Assembly: GCA_017453705.1 (NCBI GenBank)
Contig: JAFTEK010000180.1
Span: 1 to 25,973 of the forward strand
Origin: Treponema sp.
GTDB lineage: Bacteria > Spirochaetota > Spirochaetia > Treponematales > Treponemataceae
DNA length: 25,973 bases
Direction: 5' to 3'
Translations under genes and position numbers: made by a program
The notes under the pieces: generated by a model
What the model was told of the DNA's origin: nothing
Seen by the model: the letters and a program-made list of their open reading frames with translations, nothing else
Database searches by the model: none
Part shown: positions 2,641 to 19,659 of the stretch, in pieces
How positions within the stretch are numbered: position 1 is the stretch's first letter
Layout of the letters: every line of letters begins with the position of its first letter

Positions 2641-5061
2641 GTGATAGATATTTACGATAAGCATCTGGCAGAGGTGGAAGGGGTGAATTTCAGGGTCTAC
2701 AAGGCCCTCACCCTGACTTCCATGCTTATCAGTTTACTGCTTGGCTTTGCCACCTTTATTCCCGGCTCATATATTTCCACAAAGGACTTCCGGATTCTTT
2801 TTTTGTCATCGGCTCTCATATTTGCAGCCGCGTACTTGCCCAGCCTATGGAAAAGCCGTTTCCTGCTTCATCATTCAACAACGGTCCTGTATGTCAACAT
2901 ATTTATATGCCAGATTTTCTTTTTGCTTTTGGACAGGTCAATAGCCTATCACAGGGGGAACGAGGTTCCTTATTCCATCCTGCTTGGCTTTCTTATGATT
3001 CAACCTATAATAATCACTGACAAGCAGCCCCGGCTTGTCTCGTGGACTGTCTTTTCTGCCCTTGAGTTTATGGTTCTGTCCGTAATCCTTAAGCCCCTGC
3101 ATATAGCTATGAATGACATAATCAACTGCATGGTTATGAGCGTGATGGGGGTTATAATCGGCGGGGTTTCCAAGACTTACTTCATAAACTATACGGAAAT
3201 GAAGGTCAGGGAAAAGGACATTGAAATCCGTTCTGCAGAAGCGGCGAGCAAGGCAAAGACTGAGTTCCTTGCGCTCATAAGCCATGAGGTGCGTACACCG
3301 CTCAATGCCGTCACCAACATGAACGAGATGATTCTCCGTGAGTCCGGCGACGAGACCGCCCTGGGCTATTCCCGTGCCATAAAAATTGCCTGCAAGACCC
3401 TCTCTTCTCTGATAAATGACATATTGGATTTTTCCAAGCTGAACTCCGGCGAATTCTCCCTTCTTCCCATTGAGTACAATCTGGACGAGATGCTTAACGA
3501 AATGCTGAGCATGGTTATACCCCGTGTGCAGGAAAAGGGACTGGAGTTTAAACTGGATGTACAGGCGGATATTCCCAACAACCTGATGGGGGACGACTTA
3601 AGAATCAAGCAGTGCCTGATGAATCTTCTTTCCAATGCAATCAAGTATACGGATTCTGGCAGTGTGTCCTTGTCCGTGAGCTATTGCAAGGCGGAAGAAG
3701 ATGATGACCAGAGTATATTCCTTACTTTCAAGGTGTCTGATACCGGTATAGGGATAAAGGAGTCCGATATAGGGCGGATAGCCTATCCTTTTGAACGCCT
3801 TGACGAGATGAAAAACCGCAGTATAGAAGGTACCGGCTTGGGACTTGCCATAGTGCATGGAATTTTGAGCAAGATGGGCAGCAGCCTTCATGTTAAGAGT
3901 GAGTATGGGAAAGGCTCTGAATTCTCTTTTACAATTTGGCAGCCTGTGTCAATAAATATTCCCATTGGCAATTATGTGGCTAGTCCTCCCAGCAGCGAGG
4001 AGAAGGCTGCCCGCTACGGGACTTTCACGGCAGCCGGGGCAAGAATCCTGATTGTCGATGATTTGCAGATGAACCTGGATGTGATTTGTTCTCTTTTAAA
4101 ATGCACCGGGCTCCAGATAGACACCGCCCTAAGCGGCAAAAAGGCGATAGAGATGGTTCGGCAGAATCATTATGATGTGGTTTTCATTGATCATCGTATG
4201 CCTGTCATGGACGGCATTGAGACTCTTCATGCAATAAAACAGCTGGAGATAGCCGGCGTTGAGTCTACGAAGTTTATAATGCTCACGGCCAATGCTGCTA
4301 AGGACTCCCGCAGCCTGTACTTGCGAGAGGGCTTCCATGACTACCTGTCCAAGCCTGTGGATCCGCAGGAACTGGAGGAGATGCTGGTCTGTCACCTTCC
4401 CAAGAGTCTGGTCAGGCTCTCGGCAGGACGCAAGAATGAAGCTGCCGGGACTCAGGATGCGGACGATGCCTTCCTGCAAAAGTACAGCCTGATAGAGGGA
4501 GCTTCCGTTGAGGATGCGATGAAGTATTGCAGGAGTGTTGATTCCCTCAAAAAAGCCATACAGTCTTTCTGTGAGAATGTAGCTGGAAACACGGAAGACC
4601 TTTTGCAGGGAACCGCGAAAAGCGACTATAAAAACTGCGGCCTGATATACCATTCACTCAAGACAGAGCTGCGTCTTTTGGGCTTTACGCTCCTGTCCAA
4701 GACTGCCGCCCAGCTGGAGGAATACGCTGACTCAGAATACGCCGAGGGGCTTCGGATTCTTGCTCCGGATTTCACCGAGCAGGTCATGCTGTGTGCCAGG
4801 CAGCTGGAGGGGCTTACTGATAAAAAACAGGCTATGACCGATGCCGTCCTTGAGGATGCCGTCAGGTCACTGGAAGAATGTGCCCAGGCCGGGGATTTTC
4901 GCTCGGCATCCCGTGTACTGGATATGCTGGAAGAATATGAGGTTCCTAAGGAACTGCGCGAGATTATTGGCCAGATAAGGCAGGCCGTGAGGAATCAGAA
5001 TGTTGATTTTTTCAGAGATTTAGTACAAGATGTCACAGAGATAAAGGGAAACGCTGACTAA
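2641..5061 (+). CDS. hybrid sensor histidine kinase (6TM-HisKA-HATPase-REC-Hpt)
   Basis: This 806-residue protein combines kinase, receiver and phosphotransfer modules. About six hydrophobic segments occupy residues 22-178 with little room for a periplasmic domain, which suggests sensing within or near the membrane. A short coiled linker leads to HisKA (LISHEVRTPLN, phospho-acceptor His215). The HATPase_c domain has its N box at NLLSNAIKYT (Asn332), a G1 box DTGIGI at 367, and a GTGLGL box at 397. The receiver (about 467-585) has IVDD at 471-474, acceptor Asp517 in FIDHRMP, and Lys571. The C-terminal Hpt domain carries His671 in HSLKTELRLLG. A final helical stretch of about 80 residues resembles the ends of two other proteins in this island. 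The start is GTG. The gene probably passes phosphate to the double-receiver protein 42 nt downstream. The signal sensed is unknown. Confidence 0.92.
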   Translation: MIDIYDKHLAEVEGVNFRVYKALTLTSMLISLLLGFATFIPGSYISTKDFRILFLSSALIFAAAYLPSLWKSRFLLHHSTTVLYVNIFICQIFFLLLDRSIAYHRGNEVPYSILLGFLMIQPIIITDKQPRLVSWTVFSALEFMVLSVILKPLHIAMNDIINCMVMSVMGVIIGGVSKTYFINYTEMKVREKDIEIRSAEAASKAKTEFLALISHEVRTPLNAVTNMNEMILRESGDETALGYSRAIKIACKTLSSLINDILDFSKLNSGEFSLLPIEYNLDEMLNEMLSMVIPRVQEKGLEFKLDVQADIPNNLMGDDLRIKQCLMNLLSNAIKYTDSGSVSLSVSYCKAEEDDDQSIFLTFKVSDTGIGIKESDIGRIAYPFERLDEMKNRSIEGTGLGLAIVHGILSKMGSSLHVKSEYGKGSEFSFTIWQPVSINIPIGNYVASPPSSEEKAARYGTFTAAGARILIVDDLQMNLDVICSLLKCTGLQIDTALSGKKAIEMVRQNHYDVVFIDHRMPVMDGIETLHAIKQLEIAGVESTKFIMLTANAAKDSRSLYLREGFHDYLSKPVDPQELEEMLVCHLPKSLVRLSAGRKNEAAGTQDADDAFLQKYSLIEGASVEDAMKYCRSVDSLKKAIQSFCENVAGNTEDLLQGTAKSDYKNCGLIYHSLKTELRLLGFTLLSKTAAQLEEYADSEYAEGLRILAPDFTEQVMLCARQLEGLTDKKQAMTDAVLEDAVRSLEECAQAGDFRSASRVLDMLEEYEVPKELREIIGQIRQAVRNQNVDFFRDLVQDVTEIKGNAD

Positions 5062-5065
5062 TATA

Positions 5066-5087
5066 GGAAACATTAATCAGAGTTTCC
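5066..5087 (+). promoter_or_regulatory. intercistronic hairpin
   Basis: GGAAAC (5066-5071) and GTTTCC (5082-5087) can pair around a 10-nt loop in the gap between the first kinase and its receiver protein. There is no T-run after it, so it looks more like an mRNA stability or processing element than a terminator. The stem is only 6 bp and could be chance. Confidence 0.25.
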
Positions 5088-5103
5088 AAAGGGAAAGGCT
5101 TGT

Positions 5104-5922
5104 ATGAAAAATAAAGTTGCTTTTATCTGTGATGAGATGAATCATTTTCTTGTCAGGAGCATGGTCTCGGAACTCAGGGAGGCCGGATACAGCGTTGATG
5201 TGTATCCAATCAATATAAACGCCTACAGCTTTAGCAGCTCCGATCACGGTGTGTTCATTGTCTATATGGACGGATTCAGCACTGACAGCGAGAAGCTGCT
5301 TGCTTCCCTTGACATAGTTATGGGCGACAAAAAGAAGGAGAGGCGGCTGTATCTTATAGGCTCGGACGAGGATCTAAAAAAGGCATACAGCCACATAGAG
5401 CTGACCCTTGTTACCCATGCGTTCAAGAGGCCGGTCAATATGGAGAGCGTGCTCAAGGAGCTGAGCATCATCAACCCTTCCTATTCCTATGATGGCAGCC
5501 TTAAAATCCCAGGCTCTATCACCGTGAACATAAGCCGCAAGTCCATCCTCATAGTCGATGATGATGACGTTTACCTCAGGAACATAGAGACCTGGTTCTC
5601 TGATGACTACAATGTCTACACTGCGGCATCCGTGACAAGCGCGCTCTCCCTGCTCAAGAGGGTCAGGACGGACTTGATACTGCTGGACTACGAGATGCCC
5701 CTTCTGTCAGGCTTGGATTTCCTGCGTATACTCAGGAGCGAGCCTGCCACGGAGAAGATACCGATAATCTTCCTTACCGCCAAGGATGACAAGGAAATAA
5801 TCCTTGAGATACTAAAGGAAGGCCCCACCGGATACCTGCTCAAGTCCACCGCCCCAATCCTGCTCAAGCACAACATCAAGAACTTTTTTGACGGCAAGGA
5901 GCTGTGGTGGAAGTCCGAGTGA
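5104..5922 (+). CDS. double-receiver response regulator (pseudoREC-REC), no output domain
   Basis: This 272-residue protein has two receiver-like domains and nothing else. The C-terminal receiver (about 140-265) is complete: ILIVDDDD, acceptor Asp195 in LLDYEMP, the switch Thr in FLTAKDD, and Lys in YLLKS. The N-terminal half (about 1-125) keeps the receiver-like pattern but has VFIVYMD where the phosphorylatable Asp belongs, and ends with KRPVNMESVL like a receiver's K-P loop. No HTH, GGDEF, HD or other output follows. It starts 42 nt after the Hpt-bearing kinase behind a purine-rich Shine-Dalgarno sequence (AAGGGAAAGG), so the two are likely cotranscribed. It is a clear paralogue of the protein at 8165-8923. 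Signalling by protein contact is the likely mode, and the partner is unknown. Confidence 0.88.
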   Translation: MKNKVAFICDEMNHFLVRSMVSELREAGYSVDVYPININAYSFSSSDHGVFIVYMDGFSTDSEKLLASLDIVMGDKKKERRLYLIGSDEDLKKAYSHIELTLVTHAFKRPVNMESVLKELSIINPSYSYDGSLKIPGSITVNISRKSILIVDDDDVYLRNIETWFSDDYNVYTAASVTSALSLLKRVRTDLILLDYEMPLLSGLDFLRILRSEPATEKIPIIFLTAKDDKEIILEILKEGPTGYLLKSTAPILLKHNIKNFFDGKELWWKSE

Positions 5923-7156: not shown

Positions 7157-8158
7157 ATGAATAACAAGTTGGAAGGATGGGCGCTGCTCATTGACTCAGA
7201 CATAGACCGCCTCAAATTTGTAAGTCAAACGCTCATTTCCGCCGGAATGAGGGTAAGCTGTGCAAAATCTGTGGATATCGCGTCATCCTTCCTTAAGGGG
7301 CACAGGCCTGATATAGTTTTGGTTCACAGCTGCCTTTTCAAGGCCCTGCTTTTCCTTTCTTCCCTTCCTGTCCTGCTTATGAGTTCCGGTGATGAAGGTG
7401 AGGATGCCTTGGAGGGCTTTTTTGATGCCGGAATAAGGGATGTCATACAAATTCCCCCGCCGATTCCCAGGGTTCTCTATAGCCGGGTGGCGAATTTGCT
7501 TGCGGCGGAAAGGCCGCTTGCAGTCGGTGACAAGGATGTTCCAAAGAAAAACGCCGATTCTTTGCCAAAAGTCGAAGGAATTTCCTATGATGAGGCTCTC
7601 AAGAACTGCGGGAGCGAGGATGTCCTGAAAGAAGTCTTCCAGAAGTTCTATGACAGCATAGAGGAGAAGATAAGCGGCATAGAGGCTTTTGTCGCCGCCG
7701 GCAACTGGAAGGACTACCGCATATCCGTCCACTCGCTCAAGACTTCTGCCAGGCTTATAGGGGCCGCCAAGTTGTCCGAGGATGCCAAGGAGCTGGAATA
7801 TGCGGCAAACTACCTTAGGACGGATGAAATCGTGGAAAAAACTCCCGCCCTTGTCAGCTTGTACAGGAGTTACCGGGAAAAGCTGCTCCCTTTTGTGCAG
7901 GTACAGGAGGAACAGGCGCAAGAGGGGGAGATGCTGAGCGAGAAGGACTTTCTTGCTGCTTGTTCTGACCTTAGGGAGTGCATAACTATCTCCGACTTTG
8001 ACAGCGCGGATTTTATCGTCAAGAGCCTTTCGGAGTATAAAATTCCCGATGAAAGAAAGGATTTTATGGCACGGTTAAAGAAGGCCGTGGGGGATGTCAA
8101 CAGGCAGGAGGTTTTGACCCTGCTTTCAAATATATTAAGTATATCAGCTAAGGAATAG
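7157..8158 (+). CDS. pseudoreceiver-Hpt phosphotransfer protein
   Basis: This 333-residue soluble protein has three parts. Residues 5-115 form a receiver-like fold (LLIDSD ... IVLVHS ... VLLMSS) in which the acceptor Asp is replaced by His in VLVHS, so it should not be phosphorylated. Residues about 135-245 form an Hpt domain with the canonical HSLKTSARLIGAA, phospho-acceptor His192. The last 80 residues are a helical module like the C-terminus of the kinase at 2641-5061. It looks like a kinase that has lost its HisKA and ATPase domains. It opens an operon with the double-receiver protein 6 nt downstream and two hybrid kinases that lack Hpt domains of their own, so it may be their shared phosphotransfer hub. 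Confidence 0.88.
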   Translation: MNNKLEGWALLIDSDIDRLKFVSQTLISAGMRVSCAKSVDIASSFLKGHRPDIVLVHSCLFKALLFLSSLPVLLMSSGDEGEDALEGFFDAGIRDVIQIPPPIPRVLYSRVANLLAAERPLAVGDKDVPKKNADSLPKVEGISYDEALKNCGSEDVLKEVFQKFYDSIEEKISGIEAFVAAGNWKDYRISVHSLKTSARLIGAAKLSEDAKELEYAANYLRTDEIVEKTPALVSLYRSYREKLLPFVQVQEEQAQEGEMLSEKDFLAACSDLRECITISDFDSADFIVKSLSEYKIPDERKDFMARLKKAVGDVNRQEVLTLLSNILSISAKE

Positions 8159-8164
8159 CGCGTT

Positions 8165-8923
8165 ATGGAAAAGAGAGTTCTGTTTATTTGTAAGGAGCCG
8201 GGCTTCCTGGCAAAGGCTATGATAAAGAGTCTGGAGGAGCATCATTACGATGTTGATATTTCGCATCCTGACTCTGCGATATTGTCTTCCAGGGAAGGGG
8301 ATTTCCCCCCGGTTTTCTTGTTGTATATGGAAGACAACATACAGGGCTTTGAGGAATGCCTGAAGTATTTGCAGGATACAATAGCCAAGAATCATGGGGC
8401 GCATAGGCTGTACATAATCGGTTCCAAGGGGGAGCTGGACTTTGTGCATGATATAATACCGCCTGAGTATGTGGACAAGATGTTTACCAGGCCTGTTGAC
8501 CCCAAGGATGTGATATTGGAGCTGGACAAGTCCTTGTCCGGTTCTTCCGACGGAATGGGAAGAAAAATACTTATTGTCGATGATGACCCGATATTGCTCA
8601 GGACCATGAAGGCCTGGCTTGACCAAAAGTACACGGTCTATATGTCGAACAGCGGAAAGGATGCGATAGAGTTCCTGAAGGTCAACGATGTTGACCTGGT
8701 TCTGCTGGACTATGAGATGCCTGAGACCTCTGGGTTGGAAACCTTTGAGATTATGAAGAGGGATGCGGAATTGTACAGGATACCTGTGATTTTCCTGACC
8801 GCCAAGGACGACAGGGAAACTGTGGAGAAGGTTCTGGATGCCCACCCGGAGAAGTACATCCTTAAGACCCTGCCCCAGATAAAGATAACCAAGAGCATAG
8901 ACGCTTTCTTCGCTGGCGAATAA
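8165..8923 (+). CDS. double-receiver response regulator (pseudoREC-REC), paralogue
   Basis: This 252-residue paralogue of the protein at 5104-5922 has the same two-domain build. The N-terminal domain has VFLLYMED in place of the phosphorylatable Asp segment and the matching TRPVDPKDVI end. The C-terminal receiver is intact: ILIVDDDP, acceptor Asp182 in LLDYEMP, FLTAKDD, and Lys in ILKT. There is no output domain. It follows the Hpt protein by 6 nt with AAGGA upstream of the ATG, and is followed 13 nt later by a hybrid kinase, so the genes form one operon. It is the likely phosphate acceptor from His192 of the Hpt protein. The target it controls is unknown. Confidence 0.88.
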   Translation: MEKRVLFICKEPGFLAKAMIKSLEEHHYDVDISHPDSAILSSREGDFPPVFLLYMEDNIQGFEECLKYLQDTIAKNHGAHRLYIIGSKGELDFVHDIIPPEYVDKMFTRPVDPKDVILELDKSLSGSSDGMGRKILIVDDDPILLRTMKAWLDQKYTVYMSNSGKDAIEFLKVNDVDLVLLDYEMPETSGLETFEIMKRDAELYRIPVIFLTAKDDRETVEKVLDAHPEKYILKTLPQIKITKSIDAFFAGE

Positions 8924-8936
8924 AGACGGCGGGCCT

Positions 8937-11252
8937 ATGGAAACAAAAATCAAGCAGGATGAGGAGCTGCTGGCTGCCCATTTGGCGGCCATAACCGTAG
9001 CGAGCTTTCTGTTCCTTTTGCTCATTGTCGAGACGGTTGTGATGGGCTGGGAGAGCTGGGCCATACCTTTTCTTGTGGCGGCTACGATAGCGTTGTGGTT
9101 TTGCCATCTGTCCCGCTCCATTCCGCTTTCCCTCAGGGTTCCTGTCTACGTTGTCACCATGCTCGGCGTATTCTTTTTTTATGGTATCCACAAGGACAGC
9201 TTGTTTGACGTTCCCATAATCGCCATCATAATGCTTTCCGTGTTCCTGACCCTGGAATGTGACTGGGCGGTTTACGTCGGGGCCGGCATGTATGCAATGG
9301 TTCTGCTGTGGCAGCTGCTTGTGCTTAGGAACTACGAGGCTCTGCGCGGTCAGCTGGAGTTTTCGCGGCTGGTGCTGGACATTGTTGCCGTGACAGTCGC
9401 GACCCTTTCCACCAGGGATGTGAGCAACCGCAGGCGCAAGTCCAATGCCAGGGTGAATGCTGCTGTTGCCCAGCTGGAGGAGCTGAACCGGCAGACCGAA
9501 GACTTTATGGCGAATGTGTCCCATGAGTTCAGGACTCCTATAAACGCCGTGATGGGAATAAGCGAGTCATTGCTTAAAAAAGAGGGGAATACCCAGAAGA
9601 GGACGGAGCTGCTGGCCATAAAGAGAGCGGGTCACAGGCTGTTCAACCAGATAAGTGACATTCTGGATTATACTGAGATAGGAATGGGCAGGCTCAAGCT
9701 GAGTGATGCTCCCTACAGGATTGACTCCTGCATAAACGATGTGATGAGCGAGCTTAGGGCTTTGGACGAGAAGCCCTCCGTGGAGCTTGTCCTGGACGTG
9801 GACATAAAGACCCCTGCCGTTATGGTGGGGGATGAGGGGAAGATAAAGAAAGTCCTGCGCCACTTGATTGAAAACGCCATGAAATTCACCCAGGAAGGGG
9901 GTGTGTATGTGCGTGTCAGTTATCTCAAGAAAGAATATGGCGTAAACTTGTTCATCACTGTCTCTGATACCGGCTCAGGGATGAGAGAGGAGCTTTTGGG
10001 CAAGATTTTTGGCAGGCTGTATCAGGCCAACTCCGACCGTACTCGCAGGAGCGGCGGCATAGGCCTGGGGCTTACTGTCGTGTCCGGCCTTGTGCGCAGG
10101 ATGGGCGGTTTTGTTCAGGTTAGAAGTGAGATTGGGAAGGGAACGGAAATTCATGTGAGCATACCCCAGAAGGTCTCGGATGACTCGCCCTGTATGTCCA
10201 TTTCAAATGAGAAATCCCTCTGCGTGGCATATTATTTCCTGACTGAGAAGTTCAGCAATCCGATGGTTCGTGAGTATTACGAGCGGATGGTTACGACTAT
10301 ACAGGATTCCATGCCGGGCACTTTGATAAGGGCTTCTGATTTTGAAGCACTGGAGAGGATATGCCAGCAGTATCCTCTGACCCATATTTTTACTACCCGC
10401 GATGAATATAAAGTCCATACGGATTTCTTTAAGGGCCTTGCGTCCAGGATTAGCGTCATTATCATAGTGGGGCGTGAATTCCCTGACAGCAGGCTTGACG
10501 GTATCCCCATAATCAAAAAGCCCTTGTTCAGCATTCCCCTTGTCAATGTGCTCAACGGTGAGTTCCTCTCGGAAGAGGCAGTTGCGACCCAGCATTTTAT
10601 CTGTCCTGGCGTAAGGGCGCTTGTTGTGGATGATGATGAGATGAACCTTATGGTCGCGGAAGGTGTGCTCAAGGATTACCAGATGGATGTTACCCTTGCC
10701 ATAAGCGGCAAGAATGCCGTTGAGCTGTGCAAGAGGCGGGACTTTGATATTGTGTTCCTTGACCACATGATGCCGGAGATGGATGGCATAGAGTGTTCGC
10801 ACATCATAAGGCGGCTTTCCCCCCATGCCCAGAAGGACATGGTGATAATCGCATTCACTGCAAATGCCGTCAGCGGCGCGCGTGAGCTTTTCCTTGGGGA
10901 AGGATTTGATGAGTTCCTTGCAAAACCAATCGAGGTTACGACACTGGAAAGAGTCCTGAAAAGGACATTGCCAGCGTCAATGATAAAGCCTGTGACTGAG
11001 GGCCTTGCCAGGCAGAAATCTGTTGAACCGGACTTTTATGAGAGCCTTGACGGATTTGATGAAGCCCAGCTCCTTGAGCGGCTAAGCGATGCCTTGGACT
11101 GTCTGGAAGAGGACAGGGCTGTGCGGATACTGAACAGGCTTAATCCTGCGGGCTATAAGGATATCGAGGCCGCTGTCAATCAGTTTGACTTTGAAGGAGC
11201 GTCGGCAAAGCTTTCGCTTTTGACAGGAGGGAAATATGGCTCCCAGGCTTAG
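8937..11252 (+). CDS. hybrid sensor histidine kinase (6TM-HisKA-HATPase-pseudoREC-REC)
   Basis: This 771-residue kinase begins with about six membrane segments (residues 14-160) and a short helical linker. HisKA has SHEFRTPIN with His196. HATPase_c has HLIENAMKFT (Asn313), DTGSGM and GIGLGL. Residues about 422-535 form a receiver-like domain without an acceptor Asp (THIFTTRDE, then IIIVG and IIKKPLF). The true receiver (about 560-685) has VVDDDEMN, acceptor Asp609 in FLDHMMPEMDG, and Lys in FLAKP. The final 80 residues resemble the helical module of the first kinase and the Hpt protein, but with no Hpt domain before it. Phosphate would therefore need the separate Hpt protein. The Shine-Dalgarno sequence is weak (GGCGGG). 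The end overlaps the next gene by 17 bp. Confidence 0.9.
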   Translation: METKIKQDEELLAAHLAAITVASFLFLLLIVETVVMGWESWAIPFLVAATIALWFCHLSRSIPLSLRVPVYVVTMLGVFFFYGIHKDSLFDVPIIAIIMLSVFLTLECDWAVYVGAGMYAMVLLWQLLVLRNYEALRGQLEFSRLVLDIVAVTVATLSTRDVSNRRRKSNARVNAAVAQLEELNRQTEDFMANVSHEFRTPINAVMGISESLLKKEGNTQKRTELLAIKRAGHRLFNQISDILDYTEIGMGRLKLSDAPYRIDSCINDVMSELRALDEKPSVELVLDVDIKTPAVMVGDEGKIKKVLRHLIENAMKFTQEGGVYVRVSYLKKEYGVNLFITVSDTGSGMREELLGKIFGRLYQANSDRTRRSGGIGLGLTVVSGLVRRMGGFVQVRSEIGKGTEIHVSIPQKVSDDSPCMSISNEKSLCVAYYFLTEKFSNPMVREYYERMVTTIQDSMPGTLIRASDFEALERICQQYPLTHIFTTRDEYKVHTDFFKGLASRISVIIIVGREFPDSRLDGIPIIKKPLFSIPLVNVLNGEFLSEEAVATQHFICPGVRALVVDDDEMNLMVAEGVLKDYQMDVTLAISGKNAVELCKRRDFDIVFLDHMMPEMDGIECSHIIRRLSPHAQKDMVIIAFTANAVSGARELFLGEGFDEFLAKPIEVTTLERVLKRTLPASMIKPVTEGLARQKSVEPDFYESLDGFDEAQLLERLSDALDCLEEDRAVRILNRLNPAGYKDIEAAVNQFDFEGASAKLSLLTGGKYGSQA

Positions 11253-14200
11253 GCTTTCGCGGAAACAGAGGCACCGCCTGTATTTCATTATCATGGCTGT
11301 GGGGCTTGTCGCTGTATTGGTAAGCTCCAATTACCTGTACAGGTTCAAGATTGGGCATATCTTGGCAAAAGAGGCGGAGTCAACAATACGGCAGGCCCAG
11401 GCACTCAAGAGCGAGATGCTCCTTTGTGCGCATACAATGGCTTACAGCCCTGTGCTAGTGGACTACTTTTTTAGCCCGGAGGATGTGTCCAAGCAGAAGC
11501 TTGCAAGGGACTCTTGCAATATGTATTCGCTCCGCTTTATGTCCGGTAGGGCATTCTGGGTTTCGGACAAGGATCTCCGCTATTACGAGAACGGTGAGTT
11601 TTTGTACAGGGTTTTCCCCCCGTCCAAACAGGACAGATGGTACAACGCGGCATACGATGAGGAATATTGCCTTATAACTGAGGAGTTTGACCGTAACAGC
11701 AACAAGCCCTTTCTCCGCATGAGCATCCCTGTCTACGGAGTTGACGGAACGAAGGCGGGGGTTGCCGGGGCTGTAATGTCCATTTACGATATAGGGGAAT
11801 TGTTTAGCCCGAAGGAAAGGAAGTGGGAGAACCTGTTTTTCTTGTGTGATGCCGAAGGCAGGCTCACGAGCATGTCCAGGTTTGACTCGAATGAGGAAGA
11901 AAGCTTCTTTGTTGAAAACCTTCAAGATTGTGTGGTTAACCTTCCCTTGCATCCATCCGGCATGATACGGGGGTCATCCTCTATGGGGGAGTTTGTTGTG
12001 GCTCCTATCGGGGATACATGGAAGCTCCTGCTCCTGTACCCCTTTTCTGTGAGGACGCTCCTTTATTGCCTTGCAGGTACATTTGGAATCCTAATCTTTT
12101 TGCTTGCCGTTGTTTTGAGTATCTTCCAGACCCGAAGGTATATTGCCGAGAACAAAGTGATTCGCGAGCAGAAGCATGAGATAGAAATTTTGAATGAGAA
12201 CCAGAGCAGCTTCTTTTCCTGCATGAGCCACGAGATTAGGACTCCTATAAACACGATAATAGGGCTGGACGAGATGATTTTGAGGGAGGACATTTCCGAT
12301 GAGGTAGCCGAGGATGCCCGCGATATAGCCGGAGCCGGAAAAATCCTTCTCGCTCTCATAAACGACATTCTGGATATGTCCAAACTTAGCAATGGCAAGA
12401 TGGAAATTGTTCTTGCCCCCTACAACACCGGGGAACTGTTCTCTGATATCGTCAATATGATGTGGGTCAGGGCCAAGGCAAAGGGGCTGGACTTTCAGGT
12501 GGACATAGACCCGGCCATACCCTCTTCTCTTATGGGCGATGAGGTGAGAATAAAGCAGGTGCTGCTGAATTTGATTAGCAATGCCATCAAATATACGAAA
12601 GAAGGAACCGTCGCTTTTTCTGTGAGGCATGAGGAAAGCAATCTTGGCGAAGTAATGGTTACTTACTCCGTGGAAGACACCGGTATAGGAGTTAAGAAGG
12701 AAAGCATTCCGTATCTCTTTGATGCTTTTAAGCGCGTGGATATGCAGAAGAACCACATGATAGAGGGTACGGGTCTGGGGCTTTCTATTGTCAAGCAGCT
12801 TGTGGATCTGATGGGCGGCAGGATAGATGTCAGGAGCATTTACTTGAAGGGGTCTACCTTTACCGTCACCTTAAGCCAGAAGATTGTAAACTCAAACCCT
12901 GTGGGGGAACTGAACCTTAGGACAGGGAATTCCAAACGTGAGGTCAGGGAATATACTCAGAGCTTTGAGGCTCCTAATGCAAGGGTTCTTATTGTTGATG
13001 ACAACGATATGAACCTCACTGTGGAAAAGAAGCTTCTTCGTGACACCAAGCTAAGGGTTGACACCGTGGACAGCGGAAAGAAAGCCCTTGTCCAGACCAT
13101 GCATGTTAGGTACCATGCGATATTGCTTGACCACTTGATGCCTGAGATGGATGGAATCACCTGTTTGCATGAGATACGGAGACAGCCCGGTGGATTGAAC
13201 AGAAATACACCTGCGATTGTCCTGACTGCTAACGCCGGGCACAAGGATCAGCTCTTGTACGAAAGGGAAGGTTTTGACGGCTACCTGACAAAGCCTGTGA
13301 GCGGAAGCCAGCTTGAGAAGGAACTTTTGTCTGTCCTTCCTGAAGACCTTGTGACATTGCATGGTGATGGAGCGAACATAATGAACATTCGGGATGTTGG
13401 CTCGACCAGGCGTTTGTCTTCCAAAAAGAAACCCATCATAATTACTACTGATTTTGAATGTGATTTACCGGCACAGCAATTGCGCAACCTGGGTATTCCT
13501 GTCATCTCGGGCAAGATTATCACTGATGAGGGGACTTTCCGCAGTGATATAGAGATAGACACAGATGCAGTCCTTGCTTATATGGAAGAGCCGGGGCACA
13601 TTTTAAAGACTGAAGAGCCTACTGTCGCGGAATACGAGGAGTTCTTTGCAAGGCAGCTGCAGGATTACCAGTACATAATCCACATATCCATGTCTTCGCA
13701 TGTTGGCGTTTCGTTTAATCATGCAATGGAGGCTTCCAAGTCATTTGATAATATAACCGTTGTTGACTCAGGGCTTGTGTCCAGCGGTATGGGGCTTATG
13801 GTTCTAAATGCCAGACAGTTTTCCAAGGAAACAATGTCACCCCAGCTCGTCTTGAAGAAAATCGAGGAAAGCAAGTCTCTTTTTTCTACCAGCTTTGTCG
13901 TGGAGTCGCTTGATTATCTGGAAAGCAACGGCATAATCTCACATCTGGCAAAGAGTTTGTGCAGGTCTTTGCTCATGCATCCTGTTGTGAAATTCCATAA
14001 AGGCTACATGAAGGTTGCCCGCATGGAATTTGGCGAGGTGGAGAAGGCCAGGTCTAAGTATATCAGGGCTTGCTTGAGCAATCCTTCGCGCATTGATGAC
14101 AGTATACTGTACATCACTTATTCGGGGCTGTCTTTTCAGGAGCTGGAGTCCATAAAAGCCCAGGCTCTCAAGCTGGTTCCGTTTAAACAGGTGCACATCC

Positions 14201-14277
14201 AGAAGACAGCCCCTTCTGTCGCGTGTAACTGCGGGCCGGGAGCGTTTGGCCTTCTTTTCAAGAAGAAGGGGTTGTAG
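11236..14277 (+). CDS. hybrid histidine kinase fused to a DegV-like fatty-acid-binding domain
   Basis: This 1013-residue protein is dCACHE-HisKA-HATPase-REC-DegV. TM1 (about 14-33) and TM2 (about 277-299) flank a periplasmic domain with a dCACHE-like signature (DRWYNAAYDEEYC ... FLRMSIPVYGVDG ... AGVAGAVMSI). HisKA has SHEIRTPIN with His332. HATPase_c has NLISNAIKYT, DTGIGV and GTGLGL. The receiver has IVDDNDMN, acceptor Asp632 in LLDHLMPEMDG, and YLTKP. Residues about 730-1013 form a full-length DegV/EDD domain: IITTDFECDLP, KTEEPTVAEYEEFF, IHISMSSHVGVSFNHA, ITVVDSGLVSSGMG, and terminal NCGPGAFGLLF. DegV/FakB proteins bind fatty acids. A strong AGGAGGG precedes the ATG, which overlaps the upstream kinase gene. 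The fusion has no frameshift. The receiver could relay through the Hpt protein of this operon. Confidence 0.92.
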   Translation: MAPRLRLSRKQRHRLYFIIMAVGLVAVLVSSNYLYRFKIGHILAKEAESTIRQAQALKSEMLLCAHTMAYSPVLVDYFFSPEDVSKQKLARDSCNMYSLRFMSGRAFWVSDKDLRYYENGEFLYRVFPPSKQDRWYNAAYDEEYCLITEEFDRNSNKPFLRMSIPVYGVDGTKAGVAGAVMSIYDIGELFSPKERKWENLFFLCDAEGRLTSMSRFDSNEEESFFVENLQDCVVNLPLHPSGMIRGSSSMGEFVVAPIGDTWKLLLLYPFSVRTLLYCLAGTFGILIFLLAVVLSIFQTRRYIAENKVIREQKHEIEILNENQSSFFSCMSHEIRTPINTIIGLDEMILREDISDEVAEDARDIAGAGKILLALINDILDMSKLSNGKMEIVLAPYNTGELFSDIVNMMWVRAKAKGLDFQVDIDPAIPSSLMGDEVRIKQVLLNLISNAIKYTKEGTVAFSVRHEESNLGEVMVTYSVEDTGIGVKKESIPYLFDAFKRVDMQKNHMIEGTGLGLSIVKQLVDLMGGRIDVRSIYLKGSTFTVTLSQKIVNSNPVGELNLRTGNSKREVREYTQSFEAPNARVLIVDDNDMNLTVEKKLLRDTKLRVDTVDSGKKALVQTMHVRYHAILLDHLMPEMDGITCLHEIRRQPGGLNRNTPAIVLTANAGHKDQLLYEREGFDGYLTKPVSGSQLEKELLSVLPEDLVTLHGDGANIMNIRDVGSTRRLSSKKKPIIITTDFECDLPAQQLRNLGIPVISGKIITDEGTFRSDIEIDTDAVLAYMEEPGHILKTEEPTVAEYEEFFARQLQDYQYIIHISMSSHVGVSFNHAMEASKSFDNITVVDSGLVSSGMGLMVLNARQFSKETMSPQLVLKKIEESKSLFSTSFVVESLDYLESNGIISHLAKSLCRSLLMHPVVKFHKGYMKVARMEFGEVEKARSKYIRACLSNPSRIDDSILYITYSGLSFQELESIKAQALKLVPFKQVHIQKTAPSVACNCGPGAFGLLFKKKGL

Positions 14278-14455: not shown

Positions 14456-15508
14456 CTATTTGTATACTTCCCCATGTGTGTGGAAGCCGGACTTTATGAT
14501 TACTTCGTCTATGTTTTCTTTTGTGGCTATCTGGGGTTCCAGCCATAGGACGGGGACGTTCTTGTAACCGTTGTCTATCGTGGACTCATAGCCTGCGACA
14601 TAGGCCGCGGTTTCTCCTCTGGCGAGCCTGACCGCGCACTCGGCGGCTTTTTCGGCAAGCTCTGTTATCGGCTTGTATACGGTAAAGTCCTGTCTGCCCC
14701 GTACTATGTCCTGGCAGGCTGCTATGTCTGCATCTTGTCCGCAGATGGGGATATGACGGCCGGGGTAGTATTCGTCTATGGCGGTCAGCACGCTGCCTGC
14801 CACTGAATCGTTGCCGCATACGATGGCGTCGGGAATCTCGCTTTCCGTCAGCACACTTACTGCCGTCTCGTATGCCAGATCGTAGTTCCAGCCGGCCGTG
14901 TAGTAGATTCCTTTTATATCCACTCCCTGATTTTGTATTACATCATTTATACCCCTGAGCAGGAGCGTCATGTTGTAGTCTTCGTCAGGGCCGAGAATCA
15001 ACTTCCAGTTCTTGCCTACGCCCATGTCGAGTAGTTTTTGAGCCATGAGCCTGCCCACGCTCTCTGTGTTCACTGATATGTAAAGGCTTATGTCAGCGCC
15101 TGTTATCAGGCGGTCGTAGGATACTACCTGGATGCCCTTGTCACGCATTCTTTTTATGATTCCGCCCATCTTTTCCCTGTTCTTGGCGACAATAACCACG
15201 GTGTCCACCCGCCTTTGCATCAGGTATTCCAGCTGTGAATTCTGCATTTCCACGCTGTTACCGGCATTTTGGACGATGACCTCTGCCCCCAGCTCCCTTG
15301 CCTTGTTCATGAACACATCAAGGTCACGCTGCCAGCGTTCCAAGGCGAGTGTATCTATGGAAAAGCCGACCTTTGGTTTGTCATCTCCTTTCGCGGGATT
15401 TCCTTCCTCTGTCTTTGTGCTTTGCATTTTGTTACAGGCGGCAAGTGATATTAAGAGGATTGCTGCATAAGCTATGGCTGTGAATATGCTTGTTTTATTT
15501 TGCGACAT
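14456..15508 (-). CDS. XylF-like sugar-binding lipoprotein
   Basis: This 350-residue periplasmic sugar-binding protein is of the XylF/RbsB type (Peripla_BP_4). It has a lipoprotein signal with lipobox LAAC and the acylated Cys at residue 25. KVGFSIDTLALERWQRD, YDRLITGADISLYIS, VCGNDSVAGS, CGQDADIAACQ and TVYKPITELAEKAAE match the D-xylose-binding protein family closely. It is the last gene of a four-gene operon and overlaps the response regulator gene by 14 nt, with GGAG upstream of the ATG. XylF normally feeds a XylG/XylH importer, but none is adjacent: the gene ends in a convergent gap. It may therefore serve the neighbouring sensor or work with a permease elsewhere. Xylose is the best guess for the ligand. 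Other pentoses or aldoses are possible. Confidence 0.87.
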   Translation of the reverse strand: MSQNKTSIFTAIAYAAILLISLAACNKMQSTKTEEGNPAKGDDKPKVGFSIDTLALERWQRDLDVFMNKARELGAEVIVQNAGNSVEMQNSQLEYLMQRRVDTVVIVAKNREKMGGIIKRMRDKGIQVVSYDRLITGADISLYISVNTESVGRLMAQKLLDMGVGKNWKLILGPDEDYNMTLLLRGINDVIQNQGVDIKGIYYTAGWNYDLAYETAVSVLTESEIPDAIVCGNDSVAGSVLTAIDEYYPGRHIPICGQDADIAACQDIVRGRQDFTVYKPITELAEKAAECAVRLARGETAAYVAGYESTIDNGYKNVPVLWLEPQIATKENIDEVIIKSGFHTHGEVYK

Positions 15509-17051
15509 TGCGGAACTCCGTTGGCGTCATGCCGAATTTATTCTTGAATATACGTGAGAAGTAATTTTGATCGTTGAAACCGACTTCTGCGCTTATCTCT
15601 TTTATGGGGGTGCGTGGATTCTTCAAGAGCTCCTGTGCACGCCTGAGCCTCAGGTCTGTCAGATAGTTTATATAGTTTTCACCTCTTACTTCTTTAAACA
15701 TCCTGCTCAGATAGAAAGGGCTTACGTTTATGGCCGCCGCCACATCTTCCAATGATAAATCCTCGGAAATGCGTTTTTCTATATAGTCCTCGGCCTTTTT
15801 TACAATCGGGTTTTCTTTTGTTGACGTGACCAGCATCACGTTGCTGGCACATTCCTCGCATCGTTTAAGGGCAAAATCCAGTATGGACTCCATGCTGTCA
15901 GCGGCGGAGAGAACCGAGAATGCGGAGGAAAACTCTTCGTTCTGGTAGTTACAATCTATTTCTGTCGTTATGTTGCGGACGTTGACCAATAGTTCAAAAA
16001 TGGCGTTTTTTATCTTTCCCATGTCACCGGCATAAGCTTCCTGCAGGGCGGCACCGTATGACTTGAGCAGGTGGTGAATCGATGCGCCGTCGCCAGCCCT
16101 TACCCTTCCAAATATGCTTTCCGCAAGCATACCCGGGTCATTGTCCTTTTTCTTTGTTGCGTTTTTCAGGGCAAATAGAATTCCCCCGGAACTTTCCGTG
16201 GACTTCAAGGCTTCAAGAGCTTCGTTGTAGGCCGCTCCTGTCATGCTGGCATCTGTCCAAAGGGAGCTGACCCCTGCCCGTATGCCGGTGCTTATGTTGA
16301 GGCACAGGAGGTTGTATATAGAAGAAATTGCTTCTTTGGCTCCCTGGGTGACTTTCTCCTCTCCTCCTTCAATTGGAAAGTAAAAGAAGGCTGTGAGCCG
16401 GTTGGCCATAAAGGAGCCTGTGATGCATTTTGCCCTGCTTTTTAGGAGTGTGCGTATTTCATCGTAGGCTTCGCTTTGTCGCCTTTCGTCCATTCCCGGA
16501 AACTCCAGGCAGCAAAAACACCATGCCGAGCCTGATATGCCGAAATAAGAAAAGTATTCAGACACATCTTTCATGCCGCTAAGTGCTGCGGAGTAGATGA
16601 AGTCGCTCTCGACCATCGGGGAAACTATATCAAGCTTTTTGTGCAGTTCTTCTTCGCTGCTTTTTAGCCCGCGTTTTTGGTCTACGATGGTCATCGCGTT
16701 TCGCAGTGTTTCCACGACGGTATTCCTGTTGACAGGTTTGGTGAGGTATCGGTATACCCCCAGGTTCACGGCTTCCTGTGCATACTGAAAGCGGTCAAAA
16801 GCACTCAGTATGACTATCACTGTGTCCGGCTTGGACTGCTTGATGAACTTAACTGTCTCCAGCCCGTTTAGCCCGGGCATATTGATATCCATAAAGATTA
16901 TGTCCACCTGCTCCTTGGCAACAATTTCAAGGGCAGAGGAGCCGGACAGGGCGGAAAAAAGCATTGTCTCCGCCGGGAAGTTTTTTTCAATTATGAACTT
17001 TAATGAGTCAATCATTATCTGTTCGTCATCTGTCAAAAGGATTCCGTACAT
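15495..17051 (-). CDS. AraC-type response regulator (YesN-like)
   Basis: This 518-residue response regulator has a real DNA-binding output. The N-terminal receiver has LLTDDEQ, acceptor Asp55 in FMDINMPGLNG, Ser in ILSAFD, and Lys in YLTKPVN. A long middle region (about 130-400) is of the type common in YesN regulators. The C-terminal hundred residues hold two AraC-family helix-turn-helix motifs: LSLEDVAAAINVSPFYLSRM and IKEISAEVGFNDQNYFSRIF. It is the partner of the LytS-type kinase just upstream: the kinase stop TGA and this ATG share one base (TGATG), with AAGGTGG as Shine-Dalgarno. A TTG at 17054 is in frame but the ATG is better placed. It probably activates sugar uptake or glycan-use genes, possibly including its own operon. 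Confidence 0.92.
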   Translation of the reverse strand: MYGILLTDDEQIMIDSLKFIIEKNFPAETMLFSALSGSSALEIVAKEQVDIIFMDINMPGLNGLETVKFIKQSKPDTVIVILSAFDRFQYAQEAVNLGVYRYLTKPVNRNTVVETLRNAMTIVDQKRGLKSSEEELHKKLDIVSPMVESDFIYSAALSGMKDVSEYFSYFGISGSAWCFCCLEFPGMDERRQSEAYDEIRTLLKSRAKCITGSFMANRLTAFFYFPIEGGEEKVTQGAKEAISSIYNLLCLNISTGIRAGVSSLWTDASMTGAAYNEALEALKSTESSGGILFALKNATKKKDNDPGMLAESIFGRVRAGDGASIHHLLKSYGAALQEAYAGDMGKIKNAIFELLVNVRNITTEIDCNYQNEEFSSAFSVLSAADSMESILDFALKRCEECASNVMLVTSTKENPIVKKAEDYIEKRISEDLSLEDVAAAINVSPFYLSRMFKEVRGENYINYLTDLRLRRAQELLKNPRTPIKEISAEVGFNDQNYFSRIFKNKFGMTPTEFRNVAK

Positions 17052-18580
17052 CAAACCACCTTCTTTCCCAACCTGGGTATCTTCAATATGAAGCTAGTTC
17101 CGCCTTCTTCATTAGTTTGTATGTCAAAAACGTCCGCCCTGCGGAAGTACAGGCGCAGACGGGAGGCGACGTTGACAAGTCCTGTTCCCGTCCCGGATGA
17201 ATTGCCTGTAGTTCCGCCTGTGGCCGCTACAGTGGACTGGGAGTCTGTTTTTTCTGCCGCGGCCTCCAGAATCTTGTGCCTTTGCTCATCGCTCATCCCC
17301 CCTCCATTGTCGGAGATGGATATAGTTGTCTCAAAAACCGTCTGTGCTACTTCAAGGATGACGTGCCCCTTGTCTTCTTTGAGGCCGTATTTTATGCAGT
17401 TTTCGACCAAAGGCTGAAGAATCATCCTGGGGAGAGGTACGCTGTAGTCTGCCATTTCAGGCAGCTTCTTTATGAATTCGAGCCTGTCTCCGAACCTTAC
17501 CTTCATTATGTATACAAAGTTGTCAACAAGTGAAAGCTCTTCTTCCAGGCTTGCCGCAGTACCTTTTTGCTGTATGTTATAGCGGAAGAAGTCAGCTACC
17601 TGCTCTATGAAATAGCAGGTTTTGTCCGCTCCTTCCATCATTGCCAGCTGCGCCCCGGTGTTCAGCGTGTTAAATAGAAAGTGGGGGTTTATTTGGTTTT
17701 GCAGCACCCGGAGCTGGGCGGAAGAGTAAAGCTCCCGCATCTCCATCTCCTTTTCTTTCATCTCATTTTCCTGCGCGACCTTTTGCCATATCTTGTCTAT
17801 ATAGGCCTGTATGCTGACTATCATGCGGTCAAAGGCACGGCAGATGTTGCCAACCTCGTCCTCTGAGCGGCTGTTGAACAGGGGTACCTCGAAATCCATG
17901 CTGGCTATCCGCATGGCAACATCCGAAATGTTGGAAAGAGGTTTCATTATTATAGTTAACGAAAGATACAGTATGGTGGTTGTCAGGATGGAAAAGAGCA
18001 GTATGACGGCGGTGCTGACTTTAAAGAACTTTTGAAAGCTTTGTTGGTTGGCTGCGTAAAGAGATGCGTTCCGTTCCATGAGAAGGGAGTTGAGGTTCTC
18101 TATTTCTTTCTGCAAAATTCCATAGCACTCCAGGCTGAGTGTGTAGTTTTCTTTTGCGACATAAAAGTTCTTGGCTCTCTGGAATATAACGGCCTTGCGG
18201 CTGTAGGAAAAGAAACTTTTGGACAGTTTGTATACCTTGTATTCGCAAAGCCGCACGCTGTCTGTTGACGGGGGGATGTTGAATTCTTCCAAGGCGGCTT
18301 CCGCCAGGTTCTGGTGCTGGTAATAGCTGTCTATGCTCTCAAATGTCCTGTAAGACATATAGTTTTCCAGGGCGACTTCGGTGCCGAGCAGCTCTGATGA
18401 GATTTCTCCCAGCCTCTCGTTGGTCTCATAGGAGCGGCCTGTCCTGCCCAGGAAATTCCTGTTTTGCCTTGTTGTCACGAAGAAGAATGTTCCTGTGACT
18501 GCCATTGCCAGAATGACTTCCAGGAGTATCTTTGTCTTTAGGCTTTTATGGAATGGAATCGTCCACCTGCTGTGGGTCAT
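17051..18580 (-). CDS. LytS/YesM-type sensor histidine kinase
   Basis: This 509-residue membrane kinase has TM1 at about 18-36, a helical periplasmic domain (about 40-185), TM2 at about 190-213, and a HAMP domain (IIMKPLSNISDVAMRIASMDFEVPL). A coiled linker leads to the His_kinase domain with QINPHFLFNTLN, phospho-acceptor His300. The HATPase_c domain has LVENCIKYGL, SDNGGGM and GTGLVNVASRL. The low-complexity Thr/Gly/Ser insert before the last box (TVAATGGTTGNSSGTGTG) is unusually long. The chosen ATG overlaps the upstream stop as ATGA and lies behind GGAGG. An ATG at 18595 would lie inside the upstream gene without this support. The mostly helical ectodomain suits contact with a binding protein rather than direct ligand binding. 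Confidence 0.92.
   Translation of the reverse strand: MTHSRWTIPFHKSLKTKILLEVILAMAVTGTFFFVTTRQNRNFLGRTGRSYETNERLGEISSELLGTEVALENYMSYRTFESIDSYYQHQNLAEAALEEFNIPPSTDSVRLCEYKVYKLSKSFFSYSRKAVIFQRAKNFYVAKENYTLSLECYGILQKEIENLNSLLMERNASLYAANQQSFQKFFKVSTAVILLFSILTTTILYLSLTIIMKPLSNISDVAMRIASMDFEVPLFNSRSEDEVGNICRAFDRMIVSIQAYIDKIWQKVAQENEMKEKEMEMRELYSSAQLRVLQNQINPHFLFNTLNTGAQLAMMEGADKTCYFIEQVADFFRYNIQQKGTAASLEEELSLVDNFVYIMKVRFGDRLEFIKKLPEMADYSVPLPRMILQPLVENCIKYGLKEDKGHVILEVAQTVFETTISISDNGGGMSDEQRHKILEAAAEKTDSQSTVAATGGTTGNSSGTGTGLVNVASRLRLYFRRADVFDIQTNEEGGTSFILKIPRLGKKVV
17056..17062 (-). promoter_or_regulatory. Shine-Dalgarno deciding the response regulator start
   Basis: AAGGTGG lies 4 nt before the ATG at 17051 and fits that codon better than the in-frame TTG at 17054. 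Confidence 0.6.
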
Positions 18581-19572
18581 AGTTCCTCCGCCCAACGAAC
18601 CTTGACATCTGCCGCTATGTAACTGTTGGCATGTCCGTAGTGGATGTATTCAAACAGTTCCCTGAGTGCCACTGAGCCAATCTTCTGGGAGTCTATCGAT
18701 ATTAGCTCCGTTATTACCCCTATCTCCAGGTATCTGTCTAGAACGCTCCCTTCCCCGAATCCAATTATGCCTACATATCCTGACTTTCCCAGGTCGTTGA
18801 CCAGCTGGGCCGCCCTGATGCTATCCTCGCTTGACAGGCAAACGAGAAGGTCTGCTTCTGAGTATCGTATCCTTCTGGCCAGTATGCTGGAGGTGTCAGT
18901 GATTGCTGTGCTTGAGTCCAAGTCTGTTATCAGTACGTCTATATCATTGTAATAGTCCAGGTAGCCGGTGACACTGGCCATGAGGTTGCTGTAGTTTGCG
19001 CTGTTTGATTTGACCGTGTTGATTATGATTATTCTGCCGCTTCCATTCAGGAATTTTACGCTTTCTTCGGCAATTTTTTTCCCAAGCTCCGAGTAGTTGG
19101 TTCCAATGTGTGAAATCTGCGGTATCGTCTCGTCGTAGCGGGAAACCGTTATCAGCGGGATTTCCCTGCCCCCAGTGGTTCTGGGAATCCTGACGGATGA
19201 GACCCCTTCACCTATGTATGCAATAACGCCGTCTGCGTCCACGAACGAGGCAAAATCAAGCATACTCTGGAGCGACTGGTCTTCCGCAAGTGATGACGGT
19301 ACGTTCAGCTCCACAACGCAGTCGTATGATCTGCTTTCCGCTTCCGCACCCCTGTATATTTCCCTCAGGGCATCTTCATCCGCCGACTCCCCAAGGATAA
19401 GCACGTGATGGCTTCTGTCGGCTCCGTGTGGCTGCGGGTCATTCTGGCTTGCAATGGTTGGAAGCATATAGAAAGAGTAAAGGCAAAGTATGATAACGGT
19501 CAGTACGGTCAATGCCACTGCTGCCAGCTGCGGGGCAGATTTCTTTTTCTGTGATGGCATCTTCAGTTTCAT
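18577..19572 (-). CDS. membrane-anchored periplasmic sugar-binding sensor protein
   Basis: This 331-residue protein has a basic N-terminus, one hydrophobic segment (about 14-36) without a lipobox, and a periplasmic-binding domain of the LacI/RbsB type (HVLILGES, DGVIAYIGEGV, IPLITVSRYDE, HIGTNYSELGKKIAEESVKF, VGIIGFGEG, VLDRYLEIGVITELISID). The domain ends with a dimer-type strand (YIAADVKVRWAEEL). It resembles the XylFII-type sensor proteins that sit beside LytS kinases in Clostridium and relatives, rather than a transport receptor. It is the first gene of the operon and overlaps the kinase gene as ATGA. An upstream ATG at 19680 would start in the metN gene, upstream of the TATAAT box, and add a 36-residue non-signal extension, so the ATG at 19572 is preferred. 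The ligand is unknown. Confidence 0.85.
   Translation of the reverse strand: MKLKMPSQKKKSAPQLAAVALTVLTVIILCLYSFYMLPTIASQNDPQPHGADRSHHVLILGESADEDALREIYRGAEAESRSYDCVVELNVPSSLAEDQSLQSMLDFASFVDADGVIAYIGEGVSSVRIPRTTGGREIPLITVSRYDETIPQISHIGTNYSELGKKIAEESVKFLNGSGRIIIINTVKSNSANYSNLMASVTGYLDYYNDIDVLITDLDSSTAITDTSSILARRIRYSEADLLVCLSSEDSIRAAQLVNDLGKSGYVGIIGFGEGSVLDRYLEIGVITELISIDSQKIGSVALRELFEYIHYGHANSYIAADVKVRWAEEL
18585..18589 (-). promoter_or_regulatory. Shine-Dalgarno deciding the LytS-type kinase start
   Basis: GGAGG sits 4 nt before the ATG at 18580, which also forms an ATGA overlap with the upstream stop. This fixes the kinase start and shows translational coupling. Confidence 0.7.
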
Positions 19573-19578
19573 TGTCTC

Positions 19579-19587
19579 ATTATAGCA
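19579..19587 (-). promoter_or_regulatory. extended -10 promoter of the sugar-sensor operon
   Basis: TGCTATAAT (19587-19579) is a perfect extended -10 box. No convincing -35 box lies 16-18 nt upstream, as is usual for extended -10 promoters. The hexamer ends 6 nt before the ATG at 19572, so transcription should begin at the start codon itself. Confidence 0.6.
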
Positions 19588-19618
19588 CTCTTTGCCGTCT
19601 GGGGCTAGCAGTGTGAAG

Positions 19619-19647
19619 TTGCAACACAGACCGCCTTTCGTTATAAT
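19619..19647 (+). promoter_or_regulatory. promoter of metNI
   Basis: TTGCAA (19619-19624), a 17-nt spacer and a perfect TATAAT (19642-19647). The ATG of metN is 12 nt after the -10 box, leaving a leader of about 5 nt with no Shine-Dalgarno sequence. There is no room for a riboswitch. Confidence 0.65.
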
Positions 19648-19659
19648 TTCCCCTAAATT

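Follow-up and report, generated by a model that had tools for sequence, protein, structure and literature searches.

We describe a hybrid histidine kinase that is fused to a complete DegV domain and encoded in a stretch of 25,973 nucleotides from Treponema sp. (contig JAFTEK010000180.1, positions 1 to 25,973, assembly GCA_017453705.1), referred to below as the window. The gene, here called the DegV kinase gene (11236..14277, forward strand), is one half of a two-kinase system and the second gene of an operon, behind that of another hybrid kinase. In this family, the arginine by which DegV proteins of the FakB type contact the fatty acid kinase FakA is replaced in 200 of 201 fused domains. We put at about 0.5 the probability that the DegV kinase is the second kinase of a two-kinase phosphorelay, in which a FakB-derived DegV domain without a role towards FakA acts as an internal lipid input. 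The DegV kinase may, accordingly, serve the cell in sensing a lipid and not in using it.

Domain architecture and catalytic residues of the DegV kinase

The frame runs from an ATG at 11236 to a stop at 14277 with no internal stops, and its 1013 residues hold four Pfam domains in succession on the forward strand: HisKA (residues 323-387, 12202..12396, E 1e-12), HATPase_c (residues 434-548, 12535..12879, E 6.7e-27), a receiver (Response_reg, residues 584-696, 12985..13323, E 1.5e-20) and DegV (residues 734-1010, 13435..14265), the last also identified by fold match and residue comparison. The DegV match (PF02645) covers profile positions 2-279 of 280 with E 5.3e-41 and 141.2 bits against a cut-off of 27, and the NCBIfam model TIGR00762 for DegV lies above its cut-off too (154.7 versus 99.7 bits). 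A preliminary description of the gene had proposed just such an unbroken protein, ending in a full-length DegV domain, and both points hold. The phospho-acceptors that it named, H332 of HisKA and D632 of the receiver, are both present, as are the N, G1 and G2 residues of the ATPase, the receiver acidic pair, T664 and K686; the window protein therefore has the phosphorylatable histidine, the N and G boxes, and the receiver Asp and Lys that define a hybrid histidine kinase. The same residues are conserved among relatives, with the HisKA histidine in 90 of 92 aligned proteins, the N/G1/G2 residues in 90 or 91 of the 92, and D632 and K686 in all 92. Among the NCBIfam families listed for the DegV kinase (25 of 131) and for its partner in the window (25 of 135), no kinase model exceeds its curated cut-off.

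The N-terminal part holds an extracytoplasmic sensor region (residues 34-278, 11335..12069, forward strand) that is flanked, according to our own hydropathy script, by hydrophobic stretches at residues 15-33 and 279-297. A dCACHE sensor had been named for this region; no dCache domain is matched by Pfam in the window protein at E 1e-3, and in a sequence search against solved structures the best match of the region was a chemotaxis protein at E 0.06. The assignment is carried instead by relatives, since PF02743 is precomputed for 5 of the 10 nearest database relatives (P0002-P0011) and a close orthologue matches dCache_1 at E 6e-4, under the curated cut-off. Judged from these relatives, the region is probably a dCACHE domain, although for the window protein this support is indirect. 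In the Clostridia relatives of ~889 residues, a hydrophobic bundle takes the place of dCACHE, and 4-6 helices are predicted in 75 of the 77 aligned proteins with ~200 residues before the HisKA motif.

The partner kinase and a single phosphotransfer domain

The gene upstream of the DegV kinase encodes a hybrid kinase of 771 residues (8937..11252, forward strand), with HisKA, HATPase_c and a receiver by Pfam, a hydrophobic bundle ahead of them and, on our reading of the alignment, a degenerate receiver before the receiver; the two genes overlap by 17 bases. For the family we compared 79 loci, namely the window and 78 of the 80 loci fetched as the best 80 of at least 510 matches, two having been dropped for want of a DegV frame of at least 600 residues (one of them L050). 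A second hybrid kinase lies directly upstream on the same strand at 71 of the 79, the window included. At four further loci (L013, where a small frame intervenes, L021, L062 and L065) the contig begins within the partner, at L069 it stands two frames upstream, and three more leave no room to tell, so that the 76 loci able to tell hold no counter-example. The genes overlap in 40 of the 71 pairs, by 4 bases in 30 of these, and the two kinases are probably co-translated. Over the 72 loci with a partner of at least 600 residues, distances between DegV domains correlate with distances between partners at r = 0.89, near the within-protein value of 0.93; the maximum in 500 permutations was 0.11.

In the family the partner has the order hydrophobic bundle, HisKA, HATPase_c, degenerate receiver (our own reading of the alignment), receiver and, usually, a histidine-containing phosphotransfer (HPt) domain, whose histidine is found in 66 of 72 partners. 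Five partners end before the HPt, and at these very loci (L054, L066, L073, L079 and L080) the DegV kinase bears an extra HPt at its C-terminus, above the Pfam cut-off at four of the five (22.4 versus 24.6 bits at L079). A further locus, L138, also has an HPt behind DegV; the remaining DegV kinases are too short for one. In the window and in its closest relative, G410, which holds an orthologue, the HPt is a separate gene just upstream: the HPt protein of the window (333 residues, 7157..8158, forward strand) has a receiver-like start with a receiver match at only E 0.008, and an HPt at residues 159-217 (Pfam Hpt, 29.2 bits, cut-off 24.6) with the motif VHSLKTS. Because one HPt is found across both kinases, on either of them or beside them, both probably feed a single phosphorelay; this single-HPt rule covers the two kinases only. 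The preliminary description had not noticed this second half of the system: the DegV kinase belongs to a two-kinase operon with one HPt between the kinases in relatives, and there the gene further upstream often encodes a receiver protein, in part with HD-GYP or GGDEF.

Fold, pocket and arginines of the DegV domain

The predicted structure of the receiver-DegV piece has a mean predicted local distance difference test (pLDDT) score of 87.2, with values <50 only at piece residues 139-152, the linker. Its first 45 structure matches are all DegV or FakB proteins, with template-modelling scores (TM) of 0.82-0.91 relative to the target and 2dt8, 1pzx and 4x9x at the top. Modelled at full length (pLDDT 77.7), the protein again matches DegV in the same way, and its kinase region resembles RetS and GacS among others. 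As modelled, the fused DegV keeps the fold of a lipid carrier.

Residues T792, G824, I900, F932 and N998 of the window protein (our numbering) correspond to positions 61, 93, 170, 202 and 266 of FakB2, which match Thr62, Ser95, Arg173, Arg205 and His270 of FakB1. In the excerpts of PMC8892158 and PMC9136124 on which we rely, FakB1 Arg205 binds FakA and is the first residue to meet the membrane in simulations, Arg173 is required for phosphorylation, and Thr62, Ser95, Ser171 and His270 form the carboxylate network; FakB1(R173A) is described in PMC9136124 as inactive with FakA, with normal fatty acid exchange. We compared these positions in 201 distinct fused sequences, defined solely by a DegV start beyond residue 300 of the open frame, with 4 DAK2 fusions and 9 shorter cases set aside, and in 38 stand-alone DegVs (excluding 12 short-contig fragments and one split gene).

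The docking position (FakB1 R205, FakB2 202) is Ile, Phe, Met, Val, Leu, Ala or Ser in 200 of the 201 fused domains, and is followed by Gly in all 201; in the stand-alone set it is Arg or Lys in 35 of 38. The catalytic arginine (FakB1 R173) is retained in all 38 stand-alone domains and in 141 of the 201 fused ones. With Phe and Ile, respectively, the window protein has the arginine of a FakB at neither position. Judged by these residues, almost the entire family has lost the FakA contact, and the catalytic arginine is only loosely conserved. Replacement of the docking arginine in 200/201 and of the catalytic arginine in 60/201 argues for lipid sensing and not for direct lipid metabolism, and the direct link to lipid metabolism suggested in the preliminary description is not supported on these grounds, the window being among the 60.

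The Thr62 position holds Thr or Ser in 184/201 fused domains, the Ser95 position is Ser in 150 and another residue in 51, and the His270 position is Asn in 197, where the stand-alone set has His (27), Ser (7), Tyr (3) or a gap (1); all three carboxylate positions tested have hydrogen-bonding residues in 151/201. The family has mostly Ser, Ser and Asn at these positions, and the window Thr, Gly and Asn. On this comparison the fused DegV may bind a lipid. Two further candidate arguments were rejected. Asn at 266 is no proof that phosphorylation is absent, since it also occurs in DAK2-DegV fusions and since 7 Ser and 3 Tyr are found there among the 38 stand-alone domains; and FakA-like_C matches in two relatives, which might have marked a concealed piece of FakA, fall on the DegV domain.

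Distribution and origin of the fusion

A search with residues 580-1013, in which the 7996 candidates sharing most words were scored, gave at least 4544 relatives, many perhaps through the receiver alone. In the 120 relatives listed, HATPase_c, receiver and DegV are combined in all 120 and HisKA too in 118 (precomputed Pfam, own count). The nearest of those listed are nine proteins of ~1010-1020 residues at 61-65% identity, two of them named as proteins of Treponema metagenome-assembled genomes, and next come the Clostridia proteins of ~889 residues. Where databases name the kinases listed, they label them 'DegV family (EDD domain-containing) protein', which hides their sensor-kinase nature.

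For the family of Schaedlerella (Clostridia; Lachnospiraceae) 299 genomes were sampled, and 52 of them, with the centre genome counted, have a fused-type DegV at E 1e-35; in 45 of these a frame reaches 700 residues or more, and in the other 7 all frames listed are shorter (own count). In the window's phylum it was found in 4 of 392 genomes, all of the window's genus and among them the window's own; this draw is not exhaustive, as G017, of the same genus, carries one too. Two isolates, G060 and G061, have four long frames of this kind each. In a quick tree of 94 DegV rows, with support by SH-like approximate likelihood ratio test (SH-aLRT) only, the 52 kinase-fused domains all fall together in a single clade (SH-aLRT 100), which has a long stem of 0.96 changes per column and lies beside three stand-alone Clostridia DegVs. 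Members named Treponema or from the window's genus need four label changes on this tree, two of them forced by well-supported branches. We infer a single fusion event, most likely in Clostridia, with transfer into gut Treponema more than once.

Several loci depart from the usual arrangement. L136:1951-4563 (forward strand) encodes an 870-residue paralogue with HATPase_c and DegV and with no HisKA or receiver match at E 1e-3, as if the DegV domain could outlive the phosphorelay parts. At L101:6684-9363, kinase-receiver and DegV lie in two overlapping frames. One database protein, P0012, joins residues 2-405 of a partner kinase to the second part of a DegV kinase; we did not use it as a natural two-kinase fusion, because it is a single sequence with its break within the homologous kinase parts, where deletion or assembly collapse is as likely. 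Stand-alone DegV genes occur near the operon at L041, L055, L064 and L071; in the tree, those at L055:4562-5482 and L041:5051-5899 count among the stand-alone DegVs that are nearest to the fused domain.

Possible roles of the DegV domain

In the reading that we prefer, one or both kinases would autophosphorylate, and phosphate would pass from the receivers of both to the shared HPt and on to a separate receiver protein, which would be a c-di-GMP enzyme in many relatives and in the window perhaps the adjoining receiver-only protein. The DegV domain would be a cytoplasmic module that descends from FakB and has ceased to work with FakA. It would most likely be an internal input: a fatty acid or a lipid like it, taken up from the inner face of the membrane, would on binding shift the state of either the adjacent receiver or the two kinases, and the N-terminal domain would read a cue from outside. 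Several observations weigh against this. The place behind a receiver is the classical one for an output domain. The catalytic arginine is still there in 141 of the 201 fused domains, and the 60 others include 7 with Lys and 11 with His. DAK2-DegV fusions (L084-L087) have Asn at 266 and Phe at 202 in 4/4, and these two changes alone are therefore no proof of lost phosphorylation. The same four keep the catalytic arginine, a residue that a DegV tied to its own kinase would need although it could do without the docking one, and this contrast is, in favour of the lipid-input reading, our best argument against a metabolic carrier in the sensor kinase. On the other side again, Gly replaces the carboxylate-contact Ser in the window and its 10 nearest database relatives, so that fatty-acid binding may be altered or lost in this clade and the ligand may differ. 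Conservation is also lower in DegV, where the commonest residue has a mean frequency of 0.58, than in the kinase core (0.73-0.83). As regards the shared relay, the HPt behind DegV marks one clade in the tree and thus counts as one event, plus one for the window's clade; extra HPt proteins adjoin some operons (3 of 58 upstream and 2 of 41 downstream genes tested), at L020 even though the partner carries an HPt; and the correlation of DegV and partner distances is not corrected for the species tree.

Whether the domain is an output or an input had been left open in the preliminary description, and the evidence leans to input. As an output, DegV would take up, store or release fatty acids, or hand them over to FakA, under the control of receiver phosphorylation, as its classical position, the FakB and FakA genes of the host genome, and the hydrogen-bonding carboxylate residues in 151/201 and catalytic arginine in 141/201 would allow. 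We regard this as improbable, given the docking arginine absent from 200/201, the catalytic arginine absent from the window, neighbouring genes whose listed families include none of fatty-acid metabolism (see below), and an HPt behind DegV in one clade that sets a relay step after the domain. That same HPt, the lower conservation of DegV and the Ser93 equivalent that is not Ser in 51/201, the window's clade included, could be accommodated if the ligand had been lost and the fold served as a protein surface holding the two kinases or the HPt together. Such a scaffold appears unlikely to us in view of a confident predicted fold close to solved lipid-binding structures, Thr or Ser at 61 in 184/201, Asn at 266 in 197/201, and three carboxylate positions that can all hydrogen-bond in 151/201. 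A variant compatible with the lipid-input reading, possible but less likely than not, is that DegV senses another lipid or small ligand and not an ordinary long-chain fatty acid; the long stem of the fused clade (0.96 changes per column), the near-uniform Asn for His in the carboxylate network (197/201) and the variable position 93 point that way, the unchanged overall fold does not. An annotation or assembly artefact joining two genes can practically be dismissed: some relatives are indeed split or rearranged, as at L101 and in the chimeric P0012, but the four domains recur in 118 of the 120 relatives listed, the fusion stands at 79 loci, isolate records among them, and the window frame is intact. 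The sequencing error considered at the outset is excluded by the relatives with the same architecture.

The lipid-input reading would matter because the known role of DegV and FakB proteins is to carry fatty acids to FakA. A widely distributed kinase family whose DegV has lost that contact would add sensing to the roles of the fold and, in the Clostridia of gut and rumen, would connect lipid status with signalling. Somewhat short of even confidence, we tentatively propose a two-kinase phosphorelay that is common among gut Clostridia and Treponema and has so far escaped description. A fatty-acid carrier of the FakB type would there have become an intracellular lipid sensor within a kinase, through which membrane or imported fatty acids, jointly with an outside signal, would set a c-di-GMP or receiver output.

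Neighbouring genes and possible output

A gene upstream of the partner is present at 70 loci, on the same strand and within 150 bases at 61; of these, 3 run off the contig and the other 58 were tested. They match receiver (47), HD_5 of the HD-GYP type (24) and GGDEF (17), and in the window's genus L098 and L099 have receiver-HD proteins at this place. A c-di-GMP output is thus likely in many relatives, judging by these domain matches, and is not extended to the window, where the gene between HPt and partner encodes a receiver protein of 252 residues (8165..8923, forward strand; receiver at 135-245 by Pfam and translation) without a recognized output domain; G410 has no receiver-protein gene between the two. 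Downstream genes are mixed, and a fixed downstream gene was rejected. No fatty-acid-metabolism family appears among the families listed for the 58 upstream (25 of 34 families) and 41 downstream neighbours (25 of 57). Elsewhere in the host genome, a FakB gene has behind it a FakA gene that the end of the contig truncates.

Window positions 2641-5922 hold another hybrid kinase of 806 residues (histidine kinase-receiver, weak HPt match) and then a 272-residue receiver protein that is built like the 252-residue one beside the DegV operon. Ahead of them, 998-2551 encodes a 517-residue protein with a lipoprotein-like start and no Pfam or NCBIfam match at E 1e-3. On the reverse strand, 14456-19680 carries a binding protein, an AraC-type response regulator, a sensor kinase and a binding protein, and the same four-gene set adjoins the DegV operon in G410 (L097).

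Comparison with known systems

Searches of open PMC papers for DegV in the context of histidine or hybrid kinases, receivers, two-component systems, the EDD domain, Lachnospiraceae or Treponema brought up no description of this architecture, as far as titles, the openings of abstracts and counts of terms can tell; to that extent the earlier statement that no system of this design has been characterized holds. A precedent for a DegV protein apart from the phospholipid route is S. pyogenes FakB4, which is reported (PMC10138225) to have no effect on the incorporation of exogenous fatty acids into membrane lipids. With FakB1 and FakB2 of S. aureus and DegV of B. subtilis, the fused domain shares the fold, the full domain length and the Thr or Ser at the carboxylate threonine (184/201); it differs in its fusion to a hybrid kinase and in the replacement of the docking arginine, of the catalytic arginine (60/201, window included) and of His270, as counted above.

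Comparable too are the spirochaete DAK2-FakA_M-DegV proteins, encoded by relatives of the window's order, in which a fatty acid kinase is fused to its own carrier. By Pfam, DAK2, a FakA-like middle part and DegV form single chains at L134:1812-4328 and L135:1513-3444 (both reverse strand) and at L087, and by length and residues L084-L086 are probably of the same build; at L133 a frame with a glycerol-3-phosphate acyltransferase match ends the DAK2-DegV stretch. Like the DegV kinase, these proteins have a C-terminal DegV fusion with Asn at 266 and Phe at 202 (4/4), but they have their own fatty acid kinase domain and keep the catalytic arginine, so that they presumably make acyl phosphate.

The usual partner has the HisKA-HATPase-receiver-HPt order of phosphorelay kinases of the ArcB, BarA and TorS type, from which the present system differs in that the HPt can move between two kinases and in that no listed kinase model is above its cut-off. 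The GacS/RetS network of Pseudomonas brings a kinase that has a receiver and an HPt together with another hybrid kinase. The present system resembles it in a probable pairing, judged by operon and HPt, of an HPt-bearing kinase with a second hybrid kinase, and in a kinase region that resembles the RetS and GacS structures; unlike GacS/RetS, the two genes here form one operon and the second kinase bears a DegV domain.

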